Under the pieces are notes generated by a model that saw nothing but the letters and a program-made list of their open reading frames with translations, was not told the origin of the DNA and made no database searches. The position numbers were made by a program, and so were the translations under genes. A stretch of DNA of 64,000 nt, from contig OX485807.1 in NCBI GenBank assembly GCA_950295325.1, positions 34,688,440 through 34,752,439 on the forward strand, given 5' to 3'. Source of the DNA: Polytrichum commune. Its lineage: Eukaryota; Streptophyta; Polytrichopsida; Polytrichales; Polytrichaceae. How positions within the stretch are numbered: position 1 is the stretch's first letter; the number at the start of each line of letters is the position of its first letter. Of the stretch, positions 11,510-59,400 are shown in pieces.

Positions 11510-12754
11510 GTAAATAAATAAACTCCCAACGTTGGGCAATCCGATGTGAATTTGAGCCTGTTGGTCCTACCCTACTCAAGAATCCTTTTGGTGCAGGGTG
11601 GGGTAAACTGCGGCAGACATTAAGTCCCCCCATACGAACTATGGGGGGTGTCAGATCCGGGCGGGGGCAACCTCCTCGGAAATTTCTGAACCCGACCGAA
11701 AACTGCTGCCCGCCCCGCCCAACTTCGAAAAAAATATTGCTCTTGCATTCGTGAAGGCCGCTTGACTACAAATCCCATATTAAGTGCACTTCACCTTCAA
11801 GGTCTAAAATCCAATATATATGTGCACTTCCAATTAGTAAATAAGCAATTCATTGGGATTTCATTCCGGAAGTGAAACCATCAATGAAGCATGTAATTAA
11901 CTTGGAGGTCAAATAAAATTACAAAATCCTCATTAACATTGAGGTTATAATTTTTATGACTTACCATTTGAAATTGTCTTTGTCATTCTAAAGTGAAACC
12001 TAAATTTAGTGTGCTGATTTAGTATGTATATTTTACAATATTTTAGTAATGCCATCTACTTTCACAAGTATTCATACACATTCAAACCAATTAAGTCTAA
12101 TTTATTATGATTAATTCTAATTAAGCCCAAATAAATCAGAAAGTATGCTTACCAAATGAAGTAAGACACTTTCAAATAATTACATTAAATCACACGTAAT
12201 TATGAATTAATTAATTAATTCCAGTAATTACATTAATTGATTTGAGTGTGTATGAATACTTGTGAAAGTAGATGGCATTACTAAATTAATTGTAAAATAT
12301 ACATACTAAATCAACACACTAAATTTAGGTTTCACTTTAGAATGACAAAGACAATTTCAAATGGTAAGTCATAAAATTTTTAACCTCAATGTTAATGAGG
12401 ATTTTGTAATTTTATTTGACCTCCAAGTTAATTACATGCTTCATTGATGGTTTCACTTCTGGAATGATATCCCAATTAATTGTTATTTACTAGTGGGAAG
12501 TGCACATATATATTGGATTTTAGACCTTGAAGGTGAAGTGCACTTAATATGGGATTTGTAGTCAAGCGGCCTTCAAGAATGCAAGAGCAATATTTTTTTT
12601 GAAGTTGGGCGGGGCGGGCAGCAATTTTCGGTCGGGTTCAGAAATTTCCGAGGAGGATGCCCCCGCCCGGATCTGACACCCCCATAGTTCGTATGGGGGG
12701 ACTTAATGTCTGCCGTAAACTGCTTACCTTGCAGTGGGTGGCCTCTTGGCTTCC
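11510..12754 (-). mobile_element. 5'-truncated SINE S1 split by a MULE
   Basis: The two halves, 11510-11611 and 12715-12754, rejoin into one S1 body that aligns with 9780-9925. The tRNA-like head is missing. The whole is flanked by a direct repeat TACAATATG at 11501-11509 and 12755-12763, so the head was lost at insertion, as expected for incomplete target-primed reverse transcription. The interruption is the Mutator-type element at 11612-12714. Confidence 0.8.
11612..12714. mobile_element. Mutator-type foldback element, 1103 bp
   Basis: Two inverted arms of about 450 bp (roughly 11612-12070 and 12240-12714) surround a short AT-rich centre. Both ends begin GGCAGACATTAAGTCC. The element is flanked by a perfect 9-bp duplication GTAAACTGC at 11603-11611 and 12715-12723, the hallmark of Mutator-like elements. 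It sits inside a SINE S1 copy, and the intact SINE at 9780-10040 shows the unoccupied form of the site. No transposase is encoded. Transcribed, it would form a very long hairpin. Confidence 0.9.
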
Positions 12755-18660: not shown

Positions 18661-18935
18661 TATAGTGTCACCAACACTAAATGTTAACCCAACATTATTT
18701 GTCATTCCTTTTGATTTTTGTGGGGGATTATAGGTTTACAATGTTGCGATTGTTGTCACTTTCCGAGTGATTTTTTTCATCCAAGTTTCAATCATCCATG
18801 ACAATCTTTCATCACAACGAACGAACTCGTCCATCGTCCATGACAATAATTGTCCACTTATTCATAAGAAATGTCATCCGGAAAGTCACCATAGTGGCAT
18901 TAAATACCATATGACACGGAATATCAAATTTAGTG
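18661..18935 (+). mobile_element. MITE family B, 5'-truncated copy
   Basis: Shares TAGTGTCACCAACACTAAAT, TTAACCCAACATTATTTGTC and the right terminus ATTTAGTG followed by TA with the full copies in the receptor-kinase introns. The left end is missing. Confidence 0.75.
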
Positions 18936-40347: not shown

Positions 40348-40350
40348 TTA

Positions 40351-40850
40351 GGGCCACTTTACACACGAGACTTAGAGCCCGTGACCATCACACTTCAAGC
40401 ACTCTCATTGGTGGAAAAGGCGGAGCCGGTCCAAGTTCGCTTCACACTACGCATGAGGGACCAAGGGAGTATGTGAATGCAAGATGGAAGGAAAGTCTAC
40501 ATAGATTCCTACATGGCATCAAATGGATCATTTCATGGTCACTTGGACTATATTCACAAACCACCTCTTGGAGGTAGGTCTAACACAAAACTAGGAGACC
40601 ATGGCACTCCAAACGCTCACAAATGTTGATTTATTCTATTTTATCATGTGTGAGGGCCTGCATGAATAAAAATTCTTTGAGATAGCATTTGACTGAGGAC
40701 CCGGTCACACATGGCTGCACACTAAACTTGAGATGGGTCCGTGACCACACTACATTATGTTGGAGGTGTGTTGGGACGGCCTTGGGACACTTTCTTTCGG
40801 GCTCTCACAATTTCATGGTCACGGCTCTTGGCTCGTGTGTGAAGTGGCCC
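40351..40850. mobile_element. PIF/Harbinger-type MITE, 500 bp
   Basis: Ends GGGCCACTTTACACACGAG and (right, reverse-complemented) GGGCCACTTCACACACGAG are flanked by TTA at 40348-40350 and 40851-40853. Similarity continues inward (GAGCC.GTGACCAT). The TTA duplication and GGGC start are typical of Tourist-like elements. The open frame 40227-40577 is largely inside it and is not a gene. Confidence 0.85.
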
Positions 40851-42995
40851 TTAGGTTGATCAGTCCTTTAAGGGTTAAAGTGGATATTTACAAAAAGTTG
40901 GGGAATTGATGTCAATGGCAGCGCACACACGCAAGACGGGAAAAAACCGCGCATGAGATCTCAGTCGATGATGATGGAGGCGGGAAAGGGACGGTGGAAG
41001 TCTCCTCCAGCAGGCGGTAATGGCGTTCATGGGCCCCTCACAGGCACCCCCCGAACCTCGCGGGAGGAGGGCATGCAACACAATGGGGAACACACGTGGC
41101 AGAGAACATTGCAGGTGCACGGTCAGAAGCACAAACATGTCCAAATGTGCAGGAACTCCATTGTTGTGTGGTAAGGAGGGTCTGAAATGTTGATGGTGGT
41201 TGTGAGGAACATAGGACTGAACGTGCACTGAACCCCAGTAAACACGCACTGGTATTGTTGTGGTCCCTTGCACTGTGTGCGAATGTTATGCACGTGCTTG
41301 CATGTCCCGTAGAAGTGCGCACAACAGGGATATTGGGTATGCATTGCCCTCCAAAGCATGAAGAACAACCATATTGGATATGGTAAATGATCTGCACCTG
41401 CACGAAGAAGAGGGCACATGGGACTTCGTGCAAGGAGGTAGCAGGGAGGTCGAATGTTAAAGCAGTGCGATCTGGTGCAACCCTAGAAGCACAGTATGTG
41501 CACTACTGGGATGTGCGTGTGCGTGTTGGGACATAAATGCATGGGACTGATATTCATAGGGTTGTGCGCTATCTCACAAAATAGTGTTGCAATTGCAGAG
41601 TTTGCAGGGCCGCACTGTGTTGGTGCGCATGGTCGACAACAGAACCAACAACCGACACCGCACGCAATTTGCCGCGATGTTGAAAGACAACACAGAGGGC
41701 GAACCGAATCTGTAGGCCCCAGTGTGTGGCCGGACGAAAGGGAATTGCATGTGCACATGGCGGAAGGGTGGTGTGCGCACCATGGAACATGTCCCTATAG
41801 CCAAGGAGTAGTCGACACGCATAAATGACTGTGTGACCGAGGAACATCCTGGACTGTAGCCAACGTGTTCGGCGCGGAGACCTGCATATTTGTGGCACCT
41901 TGCTAACTTTGGTTGCGTGATCGTGGAATGCATTGTGCATGTAGGGTGCAAATCAAAGTGAACATTGGCGGCGGTCTACAAAAGGGGTTTCGCATGCCAA
42001 AAGAGTCGCAGTGCGAAAGGTATGAAACGCATGCACTGTGCCCTGCGGAAGTGCAAGCATGCACGAGGGTTGTGTGACATTGATGTCGTGTATATGCTGT
42101 GCATTGTGTGGAGTCTGTATGCCTCCGCCCAGACCCATGCAGCCATGTGAAGATGTATCTGGGAACGTGTGGTTCTGGGGGACGGCAGGTGTAGCGCATT
42201 CACATGGTTGTCAGAGTCTGCCTTGAATAGAGAAAATGGAAAGTGAAGAGGTTGTGTGGGAGATGGCCAAGATGGGTGTCGTAGGCGCATGCATGCACCG
42301 CCGCAAGGGGCAGGGGGTGTGAATGGGTCATAGTTGGCACAATGAGATTGGACACCGCATTGGCCGATTTCTAACAATGATAGTGTTTCCGTTGCATGGG
42401 GCAGGACAACAACCATTGTGGAAAGGCAAGAGGTTCGACGATTGGGGGAGCAGAAGGAAACCCAGGACAAGAAGCCACCGACCATCACCTCCGAACATTG
42501 CAACAACAAACACAGCGGGTAGAGGGCAAAGGGGGACAGGAACAGTGCACTGTGCAGGAACGATGGATAGGAACGCATACAGGGGGTGCTCCAGTGCAGC
42601 ATCCCCATACACAAAGGCAAGTGCACGCAGAATACAACGAATAGGAAACAATGTTTGCGCAATATTATGTGTTGCAGTGCATGATGTATGCAATACCCAT
42701 GTGCAGGGCAAGACATCACAGCGGACTATAGCAACAGCGAACACGGACGCCACCCACAATGCAAGACAATCACAAGCAAGATTTTTCTCCCCCATGCATG
42801 ATTTTATTTGGGTTGGTTTTGCAATTTGCCGGAGATTGCGCAATGTAGAAATGGGTTGTATGTGTTCAGTGATGGGTGCGGCAGAGATTGGCAGAGTTGG
42901 ATGGGAGGACATTGGTGCACAAAGAACCGGAAACACACACAGAGGACTTCCAGAGGTAAACCACAGTACTATGTCACTGTCGATGGGCACACACG

Positions 42996-45360
42996 ATGCC
43001 AGAACATGGAATGCAAGCGAGCAGTAGCATCGCACCACCACAGACGGATGAAGTCGTAAATGTGGAAATGGAGGCAGTCATGCGGAACACACGCGGATCT
43101 CACAGTGTGTTGCTGCATGGAATGCAGGTGCCAAGCACGAACAGGGCATGCAACGAAGCAGGGACGAGCAGGGACAGAGCAGGAGATGAGAATTGCAGGG
43201 CGGCGGTTGCGCATGTGGTTCTGAAGGAAGCAACAACGCACAATAGAGAACCCAAAGATCAGGGCAAGAGGACGGAGGTGGCACCAAAGGTAATAGCGTT
43301 GCGAGAGGGGGATGCCTTGCCTGAAGGGTACACTTATGCGGTACGTGCGGGAGCACAAATGGTGCCGGCAGGCACAACAGGAATGAACAAACGTGCAGAT
43401 GTGGTGGATCTTTGCACCCCTCCAAATCCACACAGGCAGGGGAACAACGGGGCTGCAGAGGCAGCGAGGACCGTAGCAGAGGCTGCGAAGACCGCGGCAG
43501 CTCAAAAAAGGTGCAGAACAAGGAAGACCAACAAGCAGGCAAATGCATCGTTTGCGCTGGAGATGAAGGAGTCCCTAACAAGCGGAAGGCCGCCCACAAT
43601 CACCGTGACCGAAACCGAGACACATTTGAAGTCACGATGGCACGCGGCAGCAAAGACAATTGCATACAAGCTAATGGAATTCAAGAAGGAGGGGTGGAAG
43701 GGGTACTCCATACATGAGAACGGATTGATACACCAAGAACTAAACGAACAATACAAGTTCGATCCGCCAGTGGATCCGAAACTTGTGGAGAAGTACCTGG
43801 CGGGGCATCTGCGCAGTTCGAGGGCAGTTTGGAAAGCACATTGGCAGAGGTATGGAGATTCGAAATGGCATCACAACTGTCCAGAGGACGCGTGGCAGAA
43901 ACTGATTGTGTGGTGGCCCACCGAAGCGTGCAAGGAGGCAGCAGCGGAAATGTTGGGGAGGCGGTTGCTCGTGCACAACAATAGCAATACGGGGCGGAAC
44001 ACGCTGGCAGACAAGATGGACGACGTGGTAAGTGTCAGCTATGGGATCATTGTCTGCATGCTATACGTGTTGCATATTTTGACAATAGGAAGTGAGTCAG
44101 CATGAACATTTGTGTTGTGCATGCGTTGTGTTGAGAAATGGAGATGCACGAATAATGGCATGCAACACATGCAATGTTCCTGCGTGCGTACGTGCTCACG
44201 AAGACAGCTTCTGCCAAAACACTGCACAACAACCATGGGAGGTGGAAGAGGCCCGCATCAAAGAGGCACTGGAAGAAAGCGAGGAATGCTCATCGTACGG
44301 GAGCGCCGACACAAGTGGAGAGTAGGCGATGCAAGCTCGCATGGCATACGCACAGGACGCAGTGTTCGACGCGACGAATGACACAAGCGGCAGAATGGAG
44401 GCTATGGGAGGCGCAAACGATGCGATAATGGCGAAGCTCGTGTCACTCGAGCAGCTTATGGCAACATTGCAGAACAACATGTCATGGGTGAGGGAGGACC
44501 TAGGGCTGGTGCACGGGGAAATGGAAAAGATAGCAGAGCATGTCAGTTCGTCAACGAACAACGCACCCAATGCTGATGATGCGCGGGAACGAGGGCCATT
44601 GGAGGCGACGACATGGTGCACGTGGACAGGGGAGGGCAACGCAACAGAACATGCAGATGTGGCAACAGTGAACAAAGACAAAGAAAAAAAAATGCACGCA
44701 CGGCAGGAAGAGGCAAACCCCGTGCATGTAGGGTACGCCGCAGCCACATCCATCATGCAGACGCAACATCCAGACATGGAGGAGGGGACGCACATAAACA
44801 TTGCAAACTTGGCGGACGATGGCGGCACATGCGATTGGTACAACGAACAGGACACATCGCCCGGAATGTGGTCGCCACCAGGGAAGCAAAGAAGAACAAA
44901 CGACGCAGAGGAGGCGGCAGAGGAGGAGACGCAACACATGGACATGGCAGCTGACTGCACGCAGGCAGGAGCACCGGAGGCAACTCTGTCATTATGGGCA
45001 GGGTTTGCAAGTGCAGTGAGGCAACTGCCTCGAAGCGTCGGCGACGGAGACGATGGGTGGGTGCAGGCCAGGAGAGGAAAAAATATTTGCACCGACATTG
45101 AAGCAATCACAGGACCGCAGACGAGGACCGCTGGAGCAACGGAACATGGAACTCTAAATTTAAATTTACCACCGGGGAGGCCCACAGGGGCAGATGCAAT
45201 GCGGGGGACGGGAGGTGGTGTAGGGAACAATGAGAGTGTTGCGAACATCGTTGGCACCAGCAGGGGATCGGAAAGAGGGACGGGACGAGGCATTGGACGC
45301 GTAAGGAGGCCACCAACAGTGGATCCACGGTACCACTCACAGGCAAACATTCGGACATAA
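42996..45360 (+). pseudogene. Transposase_24-like transposon gene with one in-frame stop
   Basis: Two exons, 42996-44027 and 44089-45360, join in phase 0 across a 61-bp GT-AG intron. They form a 767-codon frame broken only by TAG at 44323-44325. Exon 1 ends in a domain with VWKAHWQRYGDSKWHHNCP, then AWQKLIVWW, and a GRR...NNSNTGRNTLADK end. This pattern recalls the plant Transposase_24 (Ptta/En/Spm) family. Exon 2 opens with a Cys/His cluster (CCAC, then MACNTCNVPACVRAHEDSFC), then an acidic helix, the stop, a coiled-coil-like stretch (KLVSLEQLMATLQNNMSWV) and an RG-rich tail (GSERGTGRGIGRVRR). No DDE catalytic core is visible, so it may be the accessory, DNA-binding protein of a CACTA-type element. 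The stop may be mutational. Family call moderate. Confidence 0.6.
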
Positions 45361-45408
45361 ATCCCCCGCCGCACGTGTGCATTGGTATGTAACTGTGTTC
45401 ACGTGGAC
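45148..45408 (+). repeat. 261-bp direct repeat, copy 1
   Basis: Identical by eye to 46403-46663. Contains the last ~70 codons and stop of the Transposase_24-like gene plus about 48 bases of 3' DNA. Copy 1 is continuous with the gene on its left; the insert follows on the right. Confidence 0.9.
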
Positions 45409-46380
45409 TGTCGCAACCCTTGCTAGCCCTCCTTGACCATCTTGCCAATTTTTGTTTCTAGCAAAGGTTACGAGCGCTAACCATTCGCATTCCGCCATGC
45501 TAATGGATAGCTCCTCTTACCCCGGACCAATAGTTCATAGGAGGGAACCAACCCTCCTACTTTGCTTTCGGGACTCACCCCTTAATCGGTAACCCATTTC
45601 CCCAATGTGGACTTCCATCCATGGAAGTCCAATCCTATGTTGATCATCGCGTTGCCGGAGCAACACTACAACAACCCGAAGCATACTAGGCAACTATGGC
45701 CTCACAATAGGCCAAAGCCCATGGAGGCCTTGCCGTTCGGCCTCGGGTGGGTGAGGCCACACCACCTCACCCATATAAGCCTCCAGGACTTTACGCGGGG
45801 CCCCTACCCCACCGTCAACCAACCTCTTGTCTCTCTACCAAGAGTTGGGGCCAAGTGGACATTTTCCCTTAGCCGCTGGGCCTAGAAGCCCCCAGCAGCT
45901 TCAGACCATCATAACTTCCTTGTATGATGTCTAATTCCAGCAACCAACCACTCCATCTTCATCTACGCTTCACGTAGATGCCGATGGACTCCTCACTTGC
46001 CCCATTCAGGCAAGTGGTGAGGAAGTTATGCCTGTTTGAACCTTGGCAGTCCCGGGAATACTCCCAGGCACTGCTGTAGCAGGGCGCTGTCCCGGGACAG
46101 CGCCCCACTCAAATGGCCATAACTCCTAGCTCACACCTCGGATTGAGGTGTTCTTGAGCATTCTAGAATCACCACGCCATGAGCTACACATAGCTCATGG
46201 CCTTACCCTTGTGCCTCCTAGTCTTCGTGGATGGGAGGCGTTCCCAACGCCCGGGGACCTCACCCACACTAGGATCACTTGGGCCCTCTCACCAACGGCG
46301 CCACAAGTCCCGGGTGTCACTCCGGGGTCCCCCTTGTGCCCATGGTGTTTCGGGCACTCCTCATGGAGAGGTGCGCGACA
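45409..46380. mobile_element. Solo-LTR-like insert, ~972 bp
   Basis: Starts TGTCGCAACC and ends GCGACA, so it has the TG...CA borders with a short inverted repeat (TGTCGC/GCGACA) typical of retrotransposon LTRs. A TATA-like CATATAAG lies near 45774. There is no internal retroelement coding region. The flanks do not show a 5-bp duplication; instead they are the 261-bp direct repeats. It is followed by a 10-bp ladder (three GGGAACTCAT-like units, 46382-46410). Confidence 0.6.
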
Positions 46381-46402
46381 TGGGAACTCATGGGAACTCA
46401 TG

Positions 46403-46663
46403 GGAACTCTAAATTTAAATTTACCACCGGGGAGGCCCACAGGGGCAGATGCAATGCGGGGGACGGGAGGTGGTGTAGGGAACAATGAGAGTGTTGCGAA
46501 CATCGTTGGCACCAGCAGGGGATCGGAAAGAGGGACGGGACGAGGCATTGGACGCGTAAGGAGGCCACCAACAGTGGATCCACGGTACCACTCACAGGCA
46601 AACATTCGGACATAAATCCCCCGCCGCACGTGTGCATTGGTATGTAACTGTGTTCACGTGGAC
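46403..46663 (+). repeat. 261-bp direct repeat, copy 2
   Basis: Second identical copy, continuous on its right with the rest of the transposon (GGCCAACGAAATATTTG). The frame running from the insert into this copy is an accident of the junction. Confidence 0.9.
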
Positions 46664-46721
46664 GGCCAACGAAATATTTGACTGTTTGGGTTGTTGCTAA
46701 ATAAATGTATGGACGTAATGG

Positions 46722-47052
46722 ATGCAGAAGTTGGTGCGATGCGGGGCGCAGTGCTGGGTGTTGTATCCGGGCTGCGGAAGAAGACCTGTGGCGGAAGGCG
46801 TAGCAAGAAGTGCACCAACAGTAGCAGACAATGGGGGAAGCATAACGCAAACCCTGTTGATGGAATTGTGCGAGGATGGCAAACAATTGGTGAGGGTCAC
46901 GAAGGTGCACAAGAAGAACGTTCAACTCATGTACCCATAATTGGAGGAAGGCTTGCAGCACCTGGACGAGTACACAACTCCGCCTGCACCAAATAACACA
47001 TGGGTGACGTGGTCGACACGGTATCTCGTGGAGAAGGCAACCGACACATGAT
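46722..47052 (+). pseudogene. Second coding-like frame of the transposon block
   Basis: From ATG 46722 the frame encodes a Cys-containing start (VRCGAQCWVLYPGCG), then ITQTLLMELCEDGKQLVRV and KKNVQLMYP, followed by TAA at 46938-46940. It then continues in the same frame through EEGLQHLDEY and NNTWVTWSTRYLVEK to a TGA. The composition after the TAA stays coding-like, so the TAA is probably a nonsense change. No family recognised. It may be a separate gene or a downstream exon of the same transposon. Confidence 0.4.
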
Positions 47053-47838
47053 AGGCAGAAACATGGCCACATTGAAGCATAAGGCAGGGGGGGAAGGGCA
47101 GAGGGGAATGAACAATGTAAGAACACAATAGTGAAGGCATGCTTGATGTATTGCAAATAGACGCATGCAAGCGTGCTAGAAGTCTGCGGGCGCAGACGTT
47201 TTGCGGTGGCATGTGTGTTTGTTGTAGCACACGAACCATCGTTGCCACGAGTGCCAGCGAATTTACAAGTTTCTTGAACTCCGATGCTTATTGTAAATAT
47301 TCGATATATAAATATATTGTGTATACTGTACCTAAACATGCAATACACACATGGATTTGCAATGGTAATGCTATTTACAGTCTGTATACGGTGAATGCTG
47401 GAATATAACATTTATAAGAAACATTTGTATTCCGCACATACGAATACGGTCTGGGAAAACTACTGTACAATGACGCAGGTGAATACACATATAAAGCTTG
47501 ACATCAAGATATACTCCGTACATACGACAACCAACATCACAACGCATGCTGGCTGACATACGAATACTAAATGCATATAAAGTATGCATGCACATGCAAT
47601 AAATGCGGGGGGTCAACTGTGGTTCTTAAATACACGACACACTTGCAACACTCTGTGGACCAGAAAATTTGAACACATTTGGGCACCATGTTTGCTAATA
47701 ATAGCACAGTTCCAGAATGACACCGAGGCCACAGACGCTAGCGACACCTACGCACGATCCGACATGTGTGCTGCATTGTGCACAATGTCAGTGTACTGTG
47801 CATTTTTGTGTGCATTGGGACCATGTTTCCTTGTAGTG

Positions 47839-56404: not shown

Positions 56405-59400
56405 TCACATGTTGCGGCGGGTAGCCCCCGGCCGTACAATATCCTCCAGCAAGCCTTCATTGGAGGCCGCACTAGCTGGGGACGGTTGCGACCTCAATGC
56501 AGGATCTGGTGGACCCATTAACGAGTCAATCTCCATCTCCTGGGCAGCACGTCCTCCGAGAAGTGAGTTTGGAATACTACCCCAGCACATTGCGTCTTGC
56601 AAGTCTTTCAATAAAAGCTCATTATGGCTATTCCCACCACCGCCTCCCCCACCTTGCGTCTGTGGTGGCTGCTGTTCCTGCTCCTGTCCACCACCCCCGA
56701 GCATTTTCTGTGCCTTGAACAAATCCTCCGAACTTGCCTTCATGTTTCCCGAACCAATCTTGGTGATGTTGTTATTGTTTTCGTCTCGGCTCGCCGCCAT
56801 GGCAGTCGCCAACCCTCGTAAGAAAATCGGGTCCGGGCTGCTGCTGCAGCTCTGTGGCACCAGTGACAACTTATTACAAAACTCCTGTGTGCTGCTGGTT
56901 GTAGCTGCTTCCTTGTTGCTTCCCCCTCTTTGGAGCTGAACACTGAGGTCATAGGTGCTCCGTGGCGGCAACATGGGTGTGTGGGGCTGGAAGCTGGGGA
57001 AGCTGCTGGAGGTCGCAGCGGATGATGTTGGTGTTGGTGTTGGTGTTGGTGATGATGTAGATGGTACTATTGTGGTTGTGGATGTGGTTGTGGTTGTGGT
57101 TGCTGTTGCTGTTGCTGTTGCTATTGTTGTGGTGGTGGTGGTGGTGGAGGAGGAAGAAGAAGGGGGAACATAGGCGGCCCCACCTGGTTTGTGTTCACCA
57201 CAAGCTGGCAATGGCGGAGCATCAGGGTTGCTTCCTCTGGAGCCCGCCGCAGGGCTCACATGTGTGTGAGTGCCCTCGTACGTGGTGATCACCATCCCTG
57301 GATCCTCTGGAGACCGTTCCACCCTCTTCCGCACTGGACACTTGGGATTTGTGCACCTGTAGTAGCTCCTGCACATCATCACAAAGTGCAGCAAAGTTCA
57401 AACAGCAGGGATTGATGAGACTCATGGCTCCTCCCAAATTTAGAAGAACCGTCATCAAAGCCGTCATGTGTTAAATATGAGTTGATTCAGGGACTGATCG
57501 GTGATTCTTAGCTTCCGTCAGCTGATCGCAGATTGTCTCTCAGCTCGGACTGTAACCTACAGGACTTCCTGGACCGTCTGGAAAATAAATCAATCATACT
57601 TAACAATGTGAAAGCGTAACCTATAACTGAAGTCAATGAAGGTTACTAAACTTCTAACCCAAAACTTACAATGAGCCCAGATACTCATGTGAAAGTGGCT
57701 ATGCCATGAAGGACACAAGCTATGGCCAACAAGATGATGGTCTGGGGATGGCCAGGCTGCCAGCTAACAAGATACAGCAGACAAGAATGTGGGGCTCATG
57801 ATTTAGGTCAAGAGTATTTGCAAATTATGAGCTGCAGGAGCAGCTGTGAACTTCTATAGAAGGTGATCAGAGAGCCAGAGGAGAAGGAGGAGGTTAAGTA
57901 GTAGTACCGAGGATGAGGGCTATTCTTCACAGCTTTTTGGCCATACTTGCGCCACTTGTATCCATCTTCCATGATCTCCACGTCGCTCCGGGTCTGAAGT
58001 GCATACCGCGGCTCCCTCACTCTCTTCGGCCCCTTCCTCCGAGTCTTGTTCGACCTGTGCAGGCAATCCCAAAACCCATGGTCATGCCACTGATCCTAAC
58101 CCTCACTGCCAAAATTTGAGGAGTGTCCGCAGTACCCACATACAGTCGAGGAGTATCTCTTCCACGGTGTAATTCTGAATACTGGGTGACCTCTAAAGCT
58201 CTAGATGATGACGATATTACGGTTCGAAACTCTGCAAAGTGCGGAAAGAGTCCCGAAACAGTGAAGAACAAGGTTAGCTTCCGGTGTCCATTAAACCCCA
58301 TAGTCATGCAGTTGACCCAAACCCTCCCTTTCAACCTCACTACCCGATATTTGAGAAGTGTCCACTGTAGAAGGACTATATATCTCACAGCATAATTCTG
58401 AGAACCGGGTGTCTCTTAAAACTCTGGAAGATGACGATATTGCGGTTCGCAACTGCGCAAGGATGTGAAAACAGTCCCAAAACAGTGAAGAAGAAGCTTA
58501 GCTTCCGGGCTCCCAAATCCCATGGTCATGTGATTGATCCAAACCCCTCCCTCTCCCTTTGCACTACCAACATTTGAGTAGCGTCCGCAGCACCTCCCAC
58601 ATACAGAAGCTGTAGGAGGTGTATGTCACAGTATAATTCTGAATATTGGGTAACCAAATGGCAGACAAAAGAAAACTCAAAGAAGATGATGTTGCGGTTC
58701 CCCTGAACGGACAGAAAAAGTGTGAAATACTGGTGAAGAAGGAGAAGCAGCTAGCTTAACGGTTTCCCAAAATCCATGGTCATGCGATTGATCCCAACCC
58801 TCCTATCCACTTCTCACTGTCTAACTTCTCTCTTGGCCTCCGCTGCTGGAGGACTGTGTCAAAACATAATTCTGAATGCTGCCTATTCCAATGGCAGCAG
58901 TCCTACCAAAACTCTACAAGACAGTCACGTTGCGGTTACAGAAAACCGCAAAATAGTCAAATAGCGGAGCAGGTGAAGAAGGTTGAAAAGAAGGCTAAGA
59001 AAGAGAAGGAAGAGGAGGTGGGTGCTTACGGTTTCTTAAGGTCGGGAGATTGGATCTCGTCATTATCATCCAAACCTCGATCAGGTGTTTTGCGCTTACT
59101 GCTGCTGCTAACACTGGGCCCAGTGCTGGGACCGACGTTGGCCGCAGTACTGCTGCGAGCCCGGTCGCTGCTGCTCATGTGATGATGGATGTCACGGTGA
59201 ATGAGGTCGTCCTGATCACTGAAGCTCCCGGAGCTCATGGACGAGTTGGGTGTGCTGGGCAACGTGGAGGCCGTAGAATTCATGCGCGCAGGAGAAGATG
59301 ACGACCCCCCACCCGCAACCGGTGAGCCAAGTGTGGTGCTTGCAGGCGAAGGCGAGTGCATCATGGTGTTGTCGAATCCATTGGAGGAATTATGAGGTGA

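Follow-up and report, generated by a model that had tools for sequence, protein, structure and literature searches.

The window analyzed here, a 64,000-nucleotide stretch of the genome of Polytrichum commune (positions 34688440–34752439 of contig OX485807.1, hereafter C5), contains at ca. 41584–47838 (+ strand) what is left of a CACTA (En/Spm) DNA transposon, namely its right-hand part. This part carries a gene that encodes an accessory protein of the TnpA/ORF2 type, and we are highly confident in reading the region as the right end of such an element, truncated and no longer active. An earlier note, made from the letters of this DNA, had described here a nearly intact two-exon gene for an unfamiliar transposon protein, in which a Transposase_24-like domain was followed by a Cys/His cluster, a coiled coil, and an Arg-Gly (RG) tail, with a second frame downstream. 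The genome of origin that we searched comprises 64 contigs (407.8 Mb in total), of which seven are large. The plastid PsaB on its contig C8 has its best matches, at 1671.8 bits each, in three PDB sequences (7ksq, 6l35, and 8htu), followed by matches at 1634.3 and 1601.3 bits; the paper that mentions 6L35 most often deals with the moss Physcomitrella patens (PMC7884438), and the other two entries are likewise from mosses, in agreement with a moss as the source. A tblastn search with the first exon of the earlier note gave 104 matches, the window included, so that the locus does have multicopy relatives as that note had supposed; 104 is not a copy number because several matches are fragments of one copy. 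The closest matches after the window itself were 62% (C3) and 61% (C1) identical.

The DNA homology of the window element begins at about 41584 against the C3 copy (L016) and at about 41949 against the C4 copy (L018), and it fades further left, the left limit being approximate. On the right, the homology to the C3 and C1 copies stops at 47838 in TAGTG (47834–47838), and both copies end likewise (at 47838/47839 in window numbering). The right terminal inverted repeat (47779–47838, − strand) reads CACTACAAGGAAACATGGTCCC inwards and is followed by a candidate target duplication, ATA; the same kind of end was found in L016, L017, and L019. Complete copies were obtained on C3 (23,574 bp, target duplication AGT), C1 (24,494 bp, AAC), and C5 (21,313 bp, ATC). 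Their left ends read CACTAGTAGGAAAGGGGTCC (C3 and C1) or CACTAATAGCAAACAGGGTC (C5), and their right ends are the inverse of CACTACTAGGAAGCAGGGTCC or CACTAGTAGCAAACATGGTCC. CACTA...TAGTG termini are present at the right end in the window and at both ends in these three relatives. In the three copies, every left end has an inner CTGACA at position 37 and every right end has one at position 47; in the right end of the window, it is at position 48. The C3 copy encodes Transposase_21 (E 3.1e-65) and DUF4218 (E 5.3e-34), and its 460-aa transposase frame has homologues in the C1 copy (97% identity) and the C5 copy (70% identity). The tie to CACTA (En/Spm) elements drawn in the earlier note was borne out, and the linked DDE gene that it had suggested looking for in longer copies is present as Transposase_21 in the C3, C1, and C5 elements.

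Since the complete relatives have CACTA ends, 3-bp duplications, and an internal Transposase_21 gene, the protein is identified as the TnpA/ORF2-type accessory protein of a CACTA element, and the window element is a degenerate, previously unrecorded example of an already known transposon kind. Some observations weigh against this assignment. The left end of the window copy was not found: no CACTA preceded by ATA occurs on the + strand of the window, and the best left-end candidates score poorly. No Transposase_21 match was obtained in the window (best tblastn E 0.77). Subterminal repeats are typical of CACTA elements, and in a simple count no 9-mer reached four occurrences in either the C3 ends or the window end.

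Splice sites were placed by conservation in an alignment of the window with L016, L017, L018, L019, and L027. The alignment points to a predicted gene of four exons (42563–42616, 43128–44027, 44242–45342, and 46728–47051, all on the + strand), whose lengths are all divisible by three and which would encode a protein of 792 codons. Exon 1 (42563–42616, 18 codons), the likely first coding exon, is 76–87% identical in four relatives versus 50–73% over the next 378 bp. It opens with ATG in four of five sequences (not in L016), and its donor is GT in L016, L018, and L027 and GC in the window and L019. Exon 2 (43128–44027), which carries the Transposase_24-like Trp-rich domain, corresponds to the first exon of the earlier note from residue 45; its acceptor, TGCAG, is present in four of five sequences and deleted in L018. 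An excess of third-position differences was observed in four relatives over 43128–44027 and was missing over 42996–43127. The start codon that had been assumed at 42996 was set aside for the upstream exon, and 42996–43127, which is free of codon constraint, was placed in the intron.

Exon 3 (44242–45342) comprises the RG-rich linker and the putative coiled coil described in the earlier note, with a TAG at 44323–44325 and a third-position excess in three relatives. Its indels relative to L016 (12 and 6 bases) are multiples of three, a single 1-base indel occurs relative to L027, and the L016 protein is 51% identical over the residues past the TAG. The donor after the RG stretch (exon end 45342) is GT in L019 and GC in the other five sequences, and AG precedes position 46728 in five of six (not in L028). 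Exon 4 (46728–47051, 107 codons) encodes a conserved C-terminal domain, joins in phase, and contains a TAA at 46938–46940 before its TGA at 47049–47051. The protein identity of exon 4 is 54–70% in L016, L017, L019, L027, and L028 and 32% in L026, and the exon is fragmented in L018; it shows no indels and has a third-position excess in three relatives. Because the 45342 donor and the in-phase 46728 acceptor are conserved, the RG stretch is an internal linker rather than a tail, and the downstream frame is the last exon. The one nonsense codon noticed earlier in that frame exists, and the idea that the frame is an independent downstream gene was rejected.

The frame on which the two-exon model was built can be read in the window: it is open from 42996, loses 61 bp with formal GT..AG borders (44028–44088), and continues through one TAG (44323–44325) to 45360. 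The model itself was not upheld by the relatives. The donor at 44028 is GT in all six aligned sequences, the acceptor at 44088 is not shared, and the AG at 44240–44241 is present in the window and in four of five relatives. Therefore, the intron is most likely 214 bp long (44028–44241) and includes the supposed Cys/His cluster (44089–44241). The Cys stretch carries stops in L016, L017, and L018, non-triplet indels occur there, and its Cys and His ligands are not conserved as coding sequence in the relatives. Differences from the window, summed over L016, L019, and L027 for the three codon positions, were 77/67/78 in the Cys stretch, with no bias, and 29/25/33 in the first 61 bp of the intron. 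The corresponding values were 289/275/479 in the first exon of the earlier note, 372/404/566 in 44242–45342, and 92/62/160 in the last exon, and the third-position excess in these three regions was seen in each of the three relatives (chi-square p 0.0016 to 1e-7).

These values bear on the possibility that the gene encodes a hitherto undescribed transposon accessory protein, in which a true zinc-binding cluster of Cys and His residues separates the Transposase_24-like domain from the coiled coil and the exons are joined across the 61-bp intron. Removing such an intron leaves the frame of the window open and formally satisfies the GT..AG rule, and the Cys stretch and exon 3 have nearly equal identities to L016 (0.67 and 0.66, respectively), a similarity that tells against an intronic origin. 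However, the identities to L019 and L027 are 0.46 and 0.41, versus 0.57 and 0.54 for 44242–45342, and together with the stops, the unshared acceptor, the unkept Cys residues, and the even codon positions they make this possibility highly unlikely. The zinc cluster was rejected on these grounds, and the Cys/His cluster is most likely intron sequence misread as protein. The domain order that had seemed undescribed arose from reading this intron as protein, calling an internal linker a tail, and taking exon 4 for a frame of its own. What had looked like a new Cys/His transposon protein is replaced by a gene model checked against relatives and by complete sister elements.

The four-exon model has difficulties of its own. 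All of its splice sites are predictions from conservation. L019 lacks the AG at the 44240–44241 column, exon 2 has non-triplet indels relative to L018, L019, and L027, and the model offers no explanation for 42617–42994, which is conserved (67–73% in the nearest copies) without codon bias. This segment may be an untranslated exon or a regulatory region between divergent genes. It shows AG/GT borders at ca. 42706 and ca. 42956. A possible additional coding exon at 42707–42955 would fit these borders in the alignment, whereas the lack of codon bias across 42617–42994 and a 2-base indel in L016 argue against it.

In the predicted protein, a Trp-rich domain resembling Transposase_24 is followed by an RG-rich middle part and then by a C-terminal domain that is compact and conserved. 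To characterize the first of these, 33 loci were tried, and 21 were combined with the window into a set of 22 family domains. Eight loci without a match to the domain (L001–L006, L036, and L044) were left out, as were L018, which carries stops, and L011, L027, and L028, which duplicate L019, L013, and L012, respectively; of L035, L037, and L042, only the open portion was used. PF03004 (Transposase_24) matched 12 of the 22 domains at E values up to 1 (best, 1.9e-6), and the comparison of the family by hhalign with five PF03004-positive proteins of the same genome gave an E value of 3.5e-5 (L003, which contains a stop, was not used as a sixth). The Transposase_24-like domain of the earlier note is supported at the level of the family, and the window domain itself remained unmatched.

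Several results count against the family assignment. The Trp-rich domain of the window matches no Pfam family, and the probability of the hhalign match to the PF03004-positive proteins is only 71.6%. The C-terminal (last-exon) domain, searched by hmmscan with the exon from three copies, also matches no Pfam family. In the two family members whose scores are given, the PF03004 match reaches 17.1 and 12.3 bits, below the Pfam cut-off of 28.7 bits. When pieces of the window were compared with Pfam, none rose above noise, and the single match at E 0.086 came from a frame other than the conserved one. PF03017 (Transposase_23) did not match the last exon in the hmmscan of three copies, and an own-genome PF03017 search was empty, though no positive control fired in it. 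No credible relatives among solved structures were obtained in searches with the Trp-rich and C-terminal domains (best E 0.37 and 0.92, respectively).

The window copy is dead. Its gene is interrupted by two nonsense codons (TAG at 44323–44325 and TAA at 46938–46940), its left end and transposase gene were not found, and its last intron holds a long terminal repeat (LTR) together with a 261-bp duplication. The solo LTR (45409–46380, + strand, 972 bp, TG..CA) belongs to a high-copy retrotransposon, with 39 other near-full-length matches at 97–99% identity among 40 candidates scored, and five pairs of matches lie ca. 6 kb apart on one strand, as for complete retrotransposons. The first copy of the direct repeat (45148–45408, + strand) spans the end of exon 3 and the start of the last intron, and the second (46403–46663, + strand) is 100% identical to it. 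The bases beside the LTR form no target duplication (TGGAC before, TGGGA after). This structure could plausibly have arisen if LTRs that had inserted at different places in two copies of the region underwent unequal exchange. About three tandem copies of a 10-mer follow the LTR within 45148–46663.

Exact duplicates can be misassembled, and a repeat that is 100% identical might raise the suspicion that the duplication or the nonsense codons are assembly errors and that the copy is less damaged than it appears. However, the left end and the transposase gene are missing from what was found in the window regardless, and we consider such errors very unlikely as an explanation. The earlier note had called the element recently silenced. 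Recent silencing is plausible from two nonsense codons in frames that are otherwise intact, with every indel between L016 and the window exons being a multiple of three; the loss is not datable because L016 is only ca. 69% identical in DNA.

To describe the surroundings of the accessory genes, we listed transposase places from two sources, 150 from a PF02992 search and 92 from a homologue search with the C3 transposase frame, the best-scoring places being taken in both. A listed transposase gene lies within 30 kb of 59 of the 104 accessory matches, at a distance of 2.3 to 25.2 kb, and 58 of these 59 linked pairs are divergent, with the transposase upstream on the opposite strand. In the lone same-strand case (C7:7192559), the partner gene also has a divergent match. 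Because both lists hold best-scoring places only, 59 is a lower bound, and because some accessory matches share one partner, the pairs represent ca. 55 distinct transposase genes. The 92-place list alone gave 57 linked pairs, 56 of them divergent, and the 150-place list alone gave 23 and 22, respectively. When 103 matches were placed randomly on C1–C7 in 200 runs, the mean number linked was 2.9 (maximum, 10) and the mean number divergent was 0.67. The gap between the accessory and transposase genes in the three complete copies is 13.1–15.4 kb. On the other side, 45 of the 104 accessory matches, including the window copy, have no listed transposase gene nearby.

The same surroundings bear on whether the window gene is a host gene domesticated from a transposon protein and no longer belongs to a mobile element. 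Exons under coding constraint would be expected of such a gene, but this constraint is common to the transposon copies too, and the window gene has two nonsense codons and adjoins a CACTA terminus. Moreover, the 23 next-best matches include 22 with an identity of 45% or more, and ten of the 23 stand beside a Transposase_21 gene, all ten divergently. Domestication is therefore extremely unlikely, and we retain the assignment to a CACTA element.

Since TnpD lies upstream on the opposite strand in the relatives, each protein would be made from a transcript of its own, the two transcripts being divergent. As a group, the CACTA transposons of this genome may produce TnpD and TnpA from separate divergent genes 2.3 to 25 kb apart, and not from a single alternatively spliced unit as in En/Spm, with at least one family having moved very recently; we put this forward tentatively, as possible rather than probable. 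The head-to-head placement raises the question of whether separate promoters free the dosage of TnpA from that of TnpD.

A subfamily that includes L035 (C2:5128300–5129300) occupies 16 places that are 100% identical over 1,001 bp. A divergent transposase gene lies within 30 kb of 15 of these 16 places (12 distinct genes). The ends of these elements were not reached: two copies that were compared stay identical for 6,501 bp leftwards and for 1,205 bp rightwards, where a stretch of 200 N interrupts one of them. This subfamily likely reflects a recent burst and may represent a recently mobile CACTA system in a bryophyte. The divergent gene pair, the large elements, and the 16-place subfamily are what remains of interest.

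The large elements show further features. An internal CACTA terminus of the right-end type occurs at 18741 of the joined stretch in the C3 copy and at 18745 in the C1 copy, which is perhaps a nested or fused element. A conserved open frame (L020:6233–7177 on the + strand; L022/L025 on the − strand) lies between the two genes on the transposase strand. This frame is 36–39% identical between the C3 and C5 copies and is either an upstream exon of the transposase or a third gene.

Elsewhere in the window, a repeat of ca. 500 bp with inverted ends starting GGGCCACTT lies to the left of the CACTA remnant (ca. 40350–40851). It has 39 other copies at 89–91% identity among 40 candidates scored and looks like a miniature inverted-repeat transposable element. 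At 11644–12683, two adjoining nested pairs of inverted repeats (201 and 194 nt, 97% complementary) with a 249-nt loop form a long, near-perfect hairpin. An open frame at 56405–57397 (− strand) ends in ...TYEGTHTH, an ending that we take to be WRKY-like; the frame is presumably a host transcription factor gene.

The accessory protein, to judge from its maize counterpart TnpA, would most likely have bound the ends of the element and worked with a separate DDE transposase (TnpD, Transposase_21), and its putative coiled coil may have served in pairing. The elements described here share with the CACTA/En/Spm system, with its tnpA (ORF2) and tnpD (ORF1), the same ends, a 3-bp duplication, a Transposase_21 with DUF4218, and a second product related to Transposase_24. 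They differ from it in that the 9-mer count found no subterminal repeats and the window copy is truncated. The Trp-rich block of PF03004 is matched in family members, whereas the window domain alone scores nothing.

Published CACTA elements carry two ORFs, of which one encodes a transposase and the other is called ORF2 (PMC4158355), and soybean TgmR likewise has two, the second with three exons (PMC4219821). Both products of Spm come from overlapping, alternatively spliced transcripts (PMC2613891, PMC8195511), that of tnpA being 100 times more abundant than that of tnpD (PMC2613891), whereas the two genes here lie on opposite strands and point apart. In lettuce, tnpA was recognized by PF03004 and tnpD by PF02992, and a requirement for contiguous tnpD-tnpA transcripts is stated (PMC8195511). 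Soybean Tgmt, a CACTA element of 20.5 kb, is similarly large, with CACTA ends, a 3-bp duplication, and tnp2 and TNP1-type functions, but makes both functions from one 24-exon gene (PMC2613891), in contrast to the two divergent genes here. A divergent tnpA/tnpD pair was not met in the literature examined, and we do not claim that it is absent from print. Transposase_24 in ORF2 is known across angiosperms (PMC8978399). A similar domain content is seen in Jozin of Chenopodium, in which Transposase_24 in ORF2 stands beside Transposase_21 and DUF4218, as here; Jozin comes from an angiosperm survey, and some of its elements also hold Peptidase_C48 (PMC8978399).

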